This document shows positions 36,266 to 39,851 of a stretch of 64,000 nucleotides of DNA, piece by piece. How positions within the stretch are numbered: the first letter of the stretch is position 1; each line of letters begins with the position of its first letter. Source of the DNA: Terriglobia bacterium (GTDB taxonomy: Bacteria; Acidobacteriota; Terriglobia; Acidiferrales; UBA7541); the NCBI GenBank assembly GCA_020073485.1, contig JAIQFB010000007.1, forward strand, positions 124,001 to 188,000, read 5' to 3'. The position numbers and the translations under genes were made by a program. The notes beneath the pieces are model-generated. The model did no database searches. It saw only the letters and a list, made by a program, of their open reading frames with translations, and was not told where the DNA came from.

Positions 36266-37843
36266 TCAGCCGCGCCCTGAACGCGGTGCCACGGGAACCA
36301 TCCGGCCTTTGTCCAGCGTAAACGCCATTCCCCGCCACTCGATCCTGTTCATCCCGAAACTGGCGAGCCACACGAAGAACGAAAGCAGATCGCGCACCGG
36401 CAGCAGCCAGAACCGGCGGCGCAGAATCGGGTCGCGCAATCCCCACACCCCAACGACCCACGCCATCGCGAATCGCAAAACGAAACATGCGGCGAGATAC
36501 GCCGCGGCAATTGACGCAGACGGCGCAACGCACGCCGCCGCGATCGCCCAGGGAAGACCGTGCGTGAACAGCATGCCGAAATGGCCGCCGGGGCGGATGT
36601 TGCGGATGCCGATGGCCCAGCGCAGCTCATGCCGCAGATATTGTCCCAGCGTTTGCGACGGAAACGCCATCCACACCGGCTCGGGCAGCAGCTCGACGCG
36701 GTAGCCGCTATCGGCGATGCGGCGGCCCAGTTCGTAATCGTCCGAATGTAGATCGACCATGGCCTCGAAGCCGCCGATTTCGGCCAGGCGCTGCTTGGTG
36801 GTGGCCATGGTCGAGCCCATCATGAATTTCACGCCTTCCAGTTCGCGCGCCACCAGCGCCGCGCCGCAAAATGCCGCCGAAGAGCCCACACAATCCATCG
36901 CCGCCACGAATTCGAGATTGTCGTGCCCGCGATACAGCGCGGTCACGCCGCCGACCTGGGGATCGCGAAACATCTCTGCCACGCTGCGCAGGTATCCCGG
37001 CTCGACGCGCACATCGCTGTCGGTGATCACCAGCAAATCGTGCCGCGCCTCGCGCGCCATGCGACACAGATTGGAAACTTTTCCGTTGGCCCCCAGCTGC
37101 TCGGACACAACAACCAAGCGGATGGACCGCTCGGGAAGATCGGCGATCAGTTTTTGAACGACCGGCACGCACGGATCCGTGGGATCCGAGACGCCGAACA
37201 GAATTTCAAAATCGGGATAATCTTGGCGGCAAAAGCTGGCGAAATTCTCGTAGGCGTTGGGATCAAGGCCGCGCAAGGGTTTTAATACGCTGATTGGAGC
37301 GACAGGGCCTGCACCATCAACAACAGCATTCCCCGGGTAACGGTGCGCCATGCGGAAAAAACGCCACGCGGAATACATTCCCAGCAAATAATAAAACAGC
37401 GGGCCCAGCGCCAGCGCCAGAATCGCCCAGCGGAACACCGTTAATACCGATGGAGTGTGCAGTCCCGCGGGCAGGTCATCCACCCACGCCATGCTCACGC
37501 CGAAGCAAATCAGTAGGATGCCAGCCCAGCGCGTGGCGTTGAGCCGCTCGCCGAGAAAAAGTTTCGCGCCGAACGCCCCGGTCACGTACGCAAGCGATGT
37601 CGCCGGAATCACAAAGCTTACGGGGAACCAGGACAGCATTGCCAAGAACGAAAAGAACGAAGCCGCCATCAGCAGCACGGCGATCCACAGCCAGCTCACG
37701 CGCATCGCGCGACACACAAAAGACAAAATCGCGCGCGGGCGCATATCGTGCACCTCGCCCAGTAGTTTCATGGCATGGGCCAGGCAGAGTTCTCCGCCGG
37801 TGCCGGTAACGACGACGATCGTAAGAATTACCGCGGTGCGCAT
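36266..37843 (-). CDS. hpnI: HpnI-like hopanoid glycosyltransferase with N-terminal EamA-type membrane domain
   Basis: 525 residues. Residues 1-125 form four helices of the EamA/SMR type (SFVIPATSLAYVTGAFGAKLFLGERLNATRWAGILLICFGVSMA). Residues about 150-520 are a GT21 (ceramide glucosyltransferase-like) enzyme: ISVLKPLRGLDPNAYEN, ITDSDVRVEPGYL (DxD-type site), SDDYELGRRI, and RHELRWA as the (Q/R)xxRW-type motif, then C-terminal helices. In the characterised pathway HpnI adds N-acetylglucosamine to bacteriohopanetetrol. The gene is 1 nt downstream of a second EamA-like gene and near hpnJ, supporting the hopanoid role. The N-terminal fusion is unusual to my knowledge. Confidence 0.85.
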   Translation of the reverse strand: MRTAVILTIVVVTGTGGELCLAHAMKLLGEVHDMRPRAILSFVCRAMRVSWLWIAVLLMAASFFSFLAMLSWFPVSFVIPATSLAYVTGAFGAKLFLGERLNATRWAGILLICFGVSMAWVDDLPAGLHTPSVLTVFRWAILALALGPLFYYLLGMYSAWRFFRMAHRYPGNAVVDGAGPVAPISVLKPLRGLDPNAYENFASFCRQDYPDFEILFGVSDPTDPCVPVVQKLIADLPERSIRLVVVSEQLGANGKVSNLCRMAREARHDLLVITDSDVRVEPGYLRSVAEMFRDPQVGGVTALYRGHDNLEFVAAMDCVGSSAAFCGAALVARELEGVKFMMGSTMATTKQRLAEIGGFEAMVDLHSDDYELGRRIADSGYRVELLPEPVWMAFPSQTLGQYLRHELRWAIGIRNIRPGGHFGMLFTHGLPWAIAAACVAPSASIAAAYLAACFVLRFAMAWVVGVWGLRDPILRRRFWLLPVRDLLSFFVWLASFGMNRIEWRGMAFTLDKGRMVPVAPRSGRG

Positions 37844-37844
37844 G

Positions 37845-38294
37845 TCAGGAGGCCGCGCCCGGCCGGGCCGGAGCCTGCGTTGTGCTGGGCGTCGTGCGGG
37901 GCGGCGTGGAATTCACCAGCAGCACGCCGAGAAAAATCAGGACGATGCCCGTCCAGCGCGCCGCGGAAACCTGCTCGCCAAGGAATAAATATCCCAGCAG
38001 CGGCACCAGAGCGTAAGCAATCGCGGAAAACGGCATCACGAAACTAAAGTCGACCCGCGAAAGCACCAGCATGTGACACACCATGAACATTAGCATCAGC
38101 GCGATTCCCAGCCAGATCGTGCCGCTGGTCAGCACGTGCACCGCGCCCGCTTCGATCGTGGACAGCCGTGAAATATCCAGATCCCCGGCATCCTTCATCC
38201 CTTTGCTCAGAAGGGTGTTTCCCACCGATCCCAGCAGGACCAGCAGGAACAACAGGACATACGTTTTCGTCTCGCGAGTTTTGCGGGCGGTCAT
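37845..38294 (-). CDS. EamA/SMR-type four-helix membrane protein
   Basis: 149 residues from the ATG at 38294 (a TTG at 38339 is possible). Four membrane helices, the last two with the EamA pattern FVMPFSAIAYALVPLLGYLFLGEQVSAARWTGIVLIFLGVLL. It aligns by eye with residues 1-125 of the following EamA-HpnI protein, so the two could form a heterodimer like ArnE/ArnF or paired SMR proteins, which flip lipid-linked sugars or small cations. It lies 69 nt from hpnJ. A flippase for a glycosylated hopanoid is a testable guess. Confidence 0.78.
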   Translation of the reverse strand: MTARKTRETKTYVLLFLLVLLGSVGNTLLSKGMKDAGDLDISRLSTIEAGAVHVLTSGTIWLGIALMLMFMVCHMLVLSRVDFSFVMPFSAIAYALVPLLGYLFLGEQVSAARWTGIVLIFLGVLLVNSTPPRTTPSTTQAPARPGAAS

Positions 38295-38363: not shown

Positions 38364-39851
38364 TTAATCGCCGGCGCTTGTCGCGGGAGGCGCCGCGGCC
38401 GCCGCCTGCGCCATCTCGCGCGCCGTGGCCTTGCGTTCGTGCAGGAACTTGAAAAACTCGACGCCCTCCCGCAGCCGCCGCTTCATCACTTCAGGATCGC
38501 GCAGCATTCCGCCGAACAGCGAAAACATTTTTCGCGGGCGGAAATAGAATTTGCGGTAAAACTCCTCGACCGAATTGAAAATTACCGGCGAACTCAGCCC
38601 CGGATAATTCATCGCGGCGGTCTGAATGCCGTGCGTATCCACCAGATCGCCGGTCTGAATCTGCAGCCAGCCCTGCTCCTGCGCCTGGCGGTAAAGTTCC
38701 GTGCCCGGATACGGCGCGGCCAGCGAAACCTGAATCGTTTCCGGATCGGTATCGCACGCAAACTGGATGGTCTTCTGAATCGTTTGCGGGGTTTCGCCCG
38801 GCAGGCCCAGAATGAACGTGCCGTGAATCTTGATGCCCAGGTCGCGGCAATTGCGCGAAAATTCCCGCGCAATATCCAGGCGCACGCCCTTTTTGATATT
38901 GATCAGGATCTGATCGTCGCCCGATTCGTACCCCACCAGCAGCAGGCGCAGCCCGTTGTCTTTCAGGATTTCAAGCGTTTTTCTGGGCACGTTGGCTTTC
39001 GCATTGCAAGACCAGTTCAGCCCGAGCTTTCCGAGTTTCCGCGCGATTTCTTCCGCGCGCGGCAAATCGTCGGTGAACGTATCGTCATCGAAGAAAAATT
39101 CACGCACCTGCGGGAAGTATTTCTTCGCCAGGGCCATCTCCGCTGCCACATTGTCCGCGCTGCGCACGCGATAGCGGTGCCCGCCCAGCGTCTGCGGCCA
39201 CAAACAGAACGTGCACTTGGAGCGGCATCCCCGGCCCGTGTACAGCGACACGTAGGGATGCTGCAAATATCCGATGAAATAATTTTCGATAGTCAGGTCG
39301 CGCTTATAGACGTCCACCACGTACGGGAGCTCGTCCATGTTCTCAATCGTGGGCCGCGGCGGCGTGAACGACACGCGCCCGTTGTCGCGGTAAGCGATCC
39401 CGCCAACGTCCTTCAGCGGCTTCCGCGCGGCAATGTCCGCGCAAATGTAATCGAATTCACCGACGGCCACCCAATCCACGGCCGGCGCGCCGTTCATCGA
39501 CTGCAGCGGCAGCACGCCCACGTGCGCCCCCACCATGCCGATCATGATCTTGGGATTCACTTCCTTCAGGTGCGCGGCGAATTTCGCGTCATTGGCAAAC
39601 GACGGCGTGCTGGTGTGCAGCACAGCCAATTCGTAATCCTTCGCCAGCGGAGCGACCTGGTCCACGGTCAGCCCGTCCGGCGGCGCGTCGATCAGGCGGC
39701 TGCCGGGAACCATGGCGGCCGGCTGCGCCAGCCAGGTGGGATACCAGAACGATTTAATCTCGCGCCGCGCCTGGTAGCGCGCGCCGGCCCCGCCGTCAAA
39801 GCCTTCATAGCTCGGCGGATTCAAAAACAATGTTTTCATTACTTCGGGCAT
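38364..39851 (-). CDS. hpnJ: HpnJ-like B12-binding radical SAM hopanoid enzyme
   Basis: 495 residues. It starts MPEVMKTLFLNPPSYEGFDGGAG, the usual HpnJ opening, followed by a B12-binding-type domain (about 40-160) and a radical SAM core with GCRSKCTFC (Cys209, 213, 216, the CX3CX2C cluster). In the pathway worked out in other hopanoid producers, HpnJ converts glucosaminyl bacteriohopanetetrol to the cyclitol ether. HpnI is in the same operon here, but the HpnK deacetylase needed between them is not in this window, nor are shc or hpnH. GGGGAAG lies upstream of the ATG at 39851. Confidence 0.9.
   Translation of the reverse strand: MPEVMKTLFLNPPSYEGFDGGAGARYQARREIKSFWYPTWLAQPAAMVPGSRLIDAPPDGLTVDQVAPLAKDYELAVLHTSTPSFANDAKFAAHLKEVNPKIMIGMVGAHVGVLPLQSMNGAPAVDWVAVGEFDYICADIAARKPLKDVGGIAYRDNGRVSFTPPRPTIENMDELPYVVDVYKRDLTIENYFIGYLQHPYVSLYTGRGCRSKCTFCLWPQTLGGHRYRVRSADNVAAEMALAKKYFPQVREFFFDDDTFTDDLPRAEEIARKLGKLGLNWSCNAKANVPRKTLEILKDNGLRLLLVGYESGDDQILINIKKGVRLDIAREFSRNCRDLGIKIHGTFILGLPGETPQTIQKTIQFACDTDPETIQVSLAAPYPGTELYRQAQEQGWLQIQTGDLVDTHGIQTAAMNYPGLSSPVIFNSVEEFYRKFYFRPRKMFSLFGGMLRDPEVMKRRLREGVEFFKFLHERKATAREMAQAAAAAPPATSAGD

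Follow-up and report, generated by a model that had tools for sequence, protein, structure and literature searches.

Half-size EamA proteins encoded beside hopanoid head-group genes in Acidobacteriota, one of them fused to HpnI, as a candidate hopanoid flippase

The window (the whole 64,000 nt stretch of Terriglobia bacterium DNA that was analysed, from a genome of 5.05 Mb) carries on its minus strand three co-directional genes in the order hpnJ, EamA1 and EamA2-HpnI, the last being a fusion, with gaps of 69 and 1 nt between them (Table 1). A profile search placed the first gene above the equivalog cut-off for HpnJ (TIGR03471, 772.1 bits against 577.6), so that hpnJ indeed lies nearby, upstream of EamA1; the proximity of hpnJ had been pointed out in an earlier reading made from the DNA letters alone (the sequence-only reading). 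Residues 141-513 of the fusion pass the HpnI equivalog cut-off (TIGR03472, 331.3 bits against 310), while residues 49-118 match Pfam EamA (PF00892) with an E-value of 8.7e-6 and 26.5 bits, just below the gathering score of 28.2; EamA1 matches the same family above that score (35.1 bits, E 2e-8). The AlphaFold2 model of the fusion, built from a 58-row alignment, has a mean pLDDT of 92 and shows four TM helices (2-28, 50-72, 78-97 and 103-120) and an extra helix (36-47), followed by a short loop (121-129), the HpnI membrane helix (130-168) and the glycosyltransferase (GT) domain. The EamA1 model (pLDDT 86) has the same helix plan as the EamA2 half. The equivalog match and the four modelled TM helices bear out the description of an HpnI-like protein with an N-terminal four-helix EamA domain, and the claimed similarity of that domain to the product of the preceding gene was also confirmed, with 32% identity in the window (E 6e-12) and approximately 34% over 115 aa (E ~1e-13) in orthologous genomes.

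Table 1. Features of the hopanoid head-group locus in the window.
Feature	Coordinates	Strand	Description	Evidence
hpnJ	38364..39851	-	Radical SAM enzyme of hopanoid head-group synthesis	TIGR03471 match
EamA1	37845..38294	-	Separate half-size partner, 149 aa, four TM helices, predicted N-in/C-in	Pfam EamA, AlphaFold2, EmrE fold, conserved neighbour
EamA2-HpnI fused gene	36266..37843	-	EamA2 plus HpnI glycosyltransferase, 525 aa, one ORF	Pfam, TIGR03472, AlphaFold2
EamA2 domain	37469..37843	-	Residues 1-125, four TM helices plus extra helix between TM1 and TM2, predicted N-out/C-out, Glu18 in TM1	Pfam EamA, AlphaFold2, charge bias, TM1 census
HpnI part	36266..37456	-	Residues 130-525: membrane helix 130-168, GT domain, C-terminal membrane helices	TIGR03472, AlphaFold2 model

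Two side observations concern the genes that precede the fusion. In the window's family the C-terminus of EamA1 is a short conserved tail, in most cases TPPRTTE or TKPRTTE, that is predicted to be cytosolic (37845-37905 in the window; loci L064-L091). The hpnJ genes of the window's genus and of genus g221 are 82-98% identical among themselves and only about 47-49% identical to the hpnJ found at the same position in sister genera, while they share 65% identity with hpnJ of G029, a genome of another family; judged by these identities, the window-type hpnJ looks like an in-place replacement by a foreign hpnJ.

An assembly or start artefact at the fusion point would have refuted the sequence-only reading. 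The fused ORF is unbroken in all other genomes of the window's genus whose locus is complete (G484-G487; in G483 it is cut by a contig end), and the same fusion was found in three further genera. The dN/dS ratio of the EamA2 part (0.09-0.19) was similar to that of the HpnI part (0.08-0.13), so that purifying selection acts on the fusion wherever the genus has a whole locus. Conservation in relatives and this selection rule out chance as well as a frame or start artefact. Among the fetched loci there are 14 EamA2-HpnI fusion ORFs: 11 from the window's family, to which the window adds a 12th, one from G291 of another family (locus L160), and two from MAGs labelled Deltaproteobacteria (L208 and L253). 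The fused half is EamA2 in every case, and no ORF joining EamA1 to EamA2 was present among the fetched loci. The remaining members of the window's family encode EamA2 as a small gene of its own immediately ahead of hpnI, and a fusion query therefore often aligns end to end across the stop codon; in one genome of this family, L082, EamA1, EamA2 and HpnI all lie in one frame across TGA stops. HpnI ORFs of approximately 680 aa elsewhere in the phylum were considered as further fusions and set aside, as in the two that were inspected the N-terminal extension contains no EamA. The fusion state changes at least four times on a maximum-likelihood tree of HpnI domains, the tree being a quick one with several weak forks, so that the figure of about four origins is approximate. 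The fusion is a late and recurrent event; in the survey of hpnI fusions in Acidobacteriota suggested by the sequence-only reading, what proved to be conserved is the tandem pair in its unfused form.

The gene order hpnJ-EamA1-EamA2-hpnI is found across the window's family, and in other classes of Acidobacteriota the order is hpnJ-hpnK-EamA1-EamA2-hpnI; the pair lies beside hpnJ, hpnK or hpnI in most of the sampled hopanoid-making members of the phylum. An HpnJ profile scan of named genomes found the pair in 69 of the best 80 hpnJ loci, which, being those nearest to an acidobacterial query, are not a sample of all bacteria. EamA1 and EamA2 are annotated separately in 64 of the 80, and five more were added by counting fused or differently labelled halves (L208, L210, L233, L250 and L253). 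The loci with the pair include those of Silvibacterium, Granulicella, Bryobacterales, Blastocatellia, a Nitrospirota MAG and Deltaproteobacteria MAGs, and those without it an Omnitrophota MAG, a Scytonema-labelled MAG and one Deltaproteobacterium. A lack of conservation of EamA1 in hopanoid producers, which by the sequence-only reading would have refuted it, was not seen. Hopanoid clusters without the pair do occur (G029, L195, L213, L186, L227 and L258). Some others, in families f30 and f41 among them, have a single EamA half by hpnI and hpnK; L168, L169, L251 and L263 are hopanoid clusters in which a single half adjoins hpnI or hpnK and no pair is present. Such a single half may possibly act as a dual-topology homodimer.

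All 43 genomes of family f2, which by gene content and neighbours includes Acidobacteriaceae, match the EamA2 profile. In nearly all f2/Acidobacteriaceae loci that were read the pair follows hpnJ and hpnI is located elsewhere; in L149 the pair faces apparent squalene-synthesis genes. The link of the EamA proteins to hpnI stands as far as fusion and adjacency are concerned, but their tie to hpnJ is at least as strong. This distribution also bears on whether EamA1 and EamA2 could be accessory membrane subunits of HpnI or HpnJ, serving as a substrate channel or scaffold with no transport of their own. Repeated fusion of EamA2 to HpnI would suit such a role, which we nevertheless consider quite improbable, given the many HpnI and HpnJ loci without the pair, the Acidobacteriaceae pair beside hpnJ with hpnI elsewhere, and a fold and paired opposite charge biases that are typical of a transporter family.

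Across a sample of the phylum, an EamA2-like match with E<1e-20 was found in 64 of 74 genomes having HpnI over the cut-off and in 6 of 322 genomes without it (Fisher p 1e-55, from a hand tally of two tables in which the genomes are not independent and kinship is uncorrected). Squalene-hopene cyclase is present in nearly all genomes with the pair. Related tandem pairs in G169, G201, G215 and G074, where no squalene-hopene cyclase over the cut-off was found, indicate that this family of pairs is not strictly bound to hopanoids; L162, L163 and L166 are loci with such tandem pairs in Acidobacteriota that have no cyclase over the cut-off.

HpnI is a GT2-type enzyme that uses a nucleotide sugar donor, and its GT domain is expected to be cytosolic. 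Since one TM helix stands before this domain and four more before that helix, EamA2 is predicted to be N-out/C-out. The Arg/Lys bias of EamA2 fits this orientation in 125 of 125 adjacent pairs, with a mean of -7.2, and that of EamA1 has the opposite sign in 95 of them, is zero in 19 and has the same sign in 11. The biases of the window pair are opposite; the EamA1 bias is weak in many genomes. This is roughly the pattern of paired SMRs, although more than 95% of those are oppositely biased (PMC9574504) and the bias of EamA1 is thus below the typical level. The best PDB matches of the EamA1 model were EmrE and Gdx-Clo, with EmrE at the top in Foldseek (E 0.006) and first in VIA-align (Z 11.6, rmsd 3.4, 109 residues), although a Z of about 11.6 can reflect a common helical arrangement. 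The top structural ranks were filled by SMR and DMT entries and sequence profiles agree weakly; as modelled, EamA1 has the EmrE fold. One position in TM1 is D or E in 117 of approximately 127 EamA2 sequences and D or N in 106 of approximately 121 EamA1 sequences, while the alignment gives Gln for ArnE and ArnF. The position may correspond to EmrE Glu14 or lie one turn away from it.

An EmrE-like fold and an acidic residue in TM1, together with the pairs in a few genomes without a cyclase, could also be read as signs of an exporter of a small soluble metabolite or drug, whose position in the cluster would reflect membrane stress and not the pathway. We regard this as very unlikely in view of the repeated fusion to HpnI and the very tight and wide linkage to hpnJ, hpnK and hpnI.

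Among known systems, the closest parallel is ArnE/ArnF, the SMR-family flippase of Und-P-Ara4N from the E. coli arn operon. Both systems comprise tandem half-size membrane proteins, and the arn operon resembles the hopanoid cluster in having a GT2 enzyme and a deacylase followed by a paired SMR flippase. ArnE and ArnF were the best NCBIfam matches of EamA1, although at 27.5 and 29.2 bits (NF011625 and NF002816) these fall far below the cut-offs of 92 and 99; EamA2 reached 19.3 bits against a cut-off of 92. The EamA pair differs in its TM1 residue (D/E in EamA2 and D/N in EamA1, Gln in ArnE/ArnF), in an operon that makes hopanoid head groups, and in the fusion of EamA2 to a glycosyltransferase. 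With paired SMRs such as EmrE/EbrAB/MdtIJ it shares the predicted EmrE/Gdx-Clo fold and mostly opposite biases, but it has an extra helix between TM1 and TM2, little sequence similarity, a hopanoid context and an enzyme fusion.

In genus g212 (L089, L090 and L091) each genome has several HpnI paralogues, and at L089 and L091 PMT_2/GT39 glycosyltransferase genes lie between EamA2 and hpnI. By analogy with Arn, the pair might flip an undecaprenyl-phosphate-linked sugar, with a periplasmic GT39/ArnT-like enzyme then glycosylating hopanoids or other envelope lipids outside. The g212 arrangement is in keeping with this, as are more distant single EamA halves that adjoin GT39-like genes in family f25. 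We think it unlikely, however, as no GT39 is found at the window locus or in most loci, the pair tracks hpnJ, and HpnI and HpnJ are equivalog matches to enzymes whose reviewed substrates are hopanoids (PMC12583986).

The remainder of the pathway was located in part in the window's genome, where squalene-hopene cyclase is encoded on another contig, next to hpnH, hpnA and an hpnG-like gene. In the described route to bacteriohopanetetrol cyclitol ether, HpnI glycosylates bacteriohopanetetrol, HpnK deacetylates the product and HpnJ makes the cyclitol ether (PMC12583986). The window has equivalog matches to HpnI and HpnJ, but HpnK had no match in its genus, and the described pathway has no EamA pair. 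It has been reported that Acidobacteriota of subdivisions 1 and 3 have hpnI and hpnJ but lack hpnK (PMC5462960). A search for the HpnN equivalog (TIGR03480) found none in any of the Acidobacteriota tested; the genome of the window, which was among them, gave partial matches only (best E 1.8e-5). HpnN, an RND transporter, serves hopanoid transfer to the outer membrane in Proteobacteria; it shares with the EamA pair a connection with hopanoids and the same envelope, but is an unrelated protein. Onward transport to the outer membrane in these organisms would therefore have to differ from that of Proteobacteria or use an unrecognised protein. HpnL was considered as an alternative flippase excluding the pair and gave no clean pattern, HpnL-like proteins occurring both with and without the pair and none of them over the cut-off.

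HpnI and HpnJ are expected to work on the cytosolic side of the membrane, and we know of no protein that turns hopanoids over between leaflets. That the pair adjoins hpnJ when hpnI is elsewhere, and is also fused to hpnI, suggests that its substrate is the product of both enzymes. The heterodimeric flippase of glycosylated hopanoid put forward in the sequence-only reading is supported by the fold, by the mostly opposite biases, by placement beside hpnJ, hpnK and hpnI, and by co-occurrence with the cyclase. Our main reading, to which we assign a probability of roughly 60%, is that EamA1 and EamA2 together make up an antiparallel flippase similar to ArnE/ArnF, which takes the decorated hopanoid to the periplasmic leaflet. 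From the evidence above we infer dimer formation, transport, its direction, its substrate and the handover, as follows. EamA1 and EamA2 would assemble into an antiparallel heterodimer of the SMR/ArnEF kind. HpnI would add GlcNAc at the cytosolic face, and the heterodimer would flip the decorated hopanoid across the inner membrane, from its cytoplasmic leaflet to the periplasmic one; the lipid would be bacteriohopanetetrol bearing a sugar or cyclitol made by HpnI, HpnJ and, in clusters that have it, HpnK. Fusion of EamA2 to the first membrane helix of HpnI would keep one half of the flippase where its lipid is made. The chances appear about even that in Acidobacteriota and a few other phyla the pair serves composite hopanoids as their inner-membrane flippase, and that several lineages have joined it in a single polypeptide to the glycosyltransferase that makes its substrate, giving a synthase-flippase.

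No description of an EamA-type flippase for hopanoids was found in the open-licence literature searched, and one may have appeared elsewhere. An EamA-like protein appears, without further remark, in the domain list for a hopanoid cluster of Leptospirillum (PMC12654047), and a 2017 survey of acidobacterial hopanoid genes mentions, for strain KBS 83, two unnamed additional genes between its clusters and hpnJ (PMC5462960). In our data the EamA pair of strain KBS 83 (L231) directly follows hpnJ.

Hopanoids are major lipids of bacterial membranes and serve as biomarkers in geology, and Acidobacteriota are dominant soil bacteria. If the main reading is true, the pair would be an undescribed machine for moving finished hopanoids across the membrane. 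As a two-gene candidate with predicted topology, located beside hpnJ in cultivated Granulicella and Silvibacterium, it would open the question of how hopanoids change leaflets to gene deletion.
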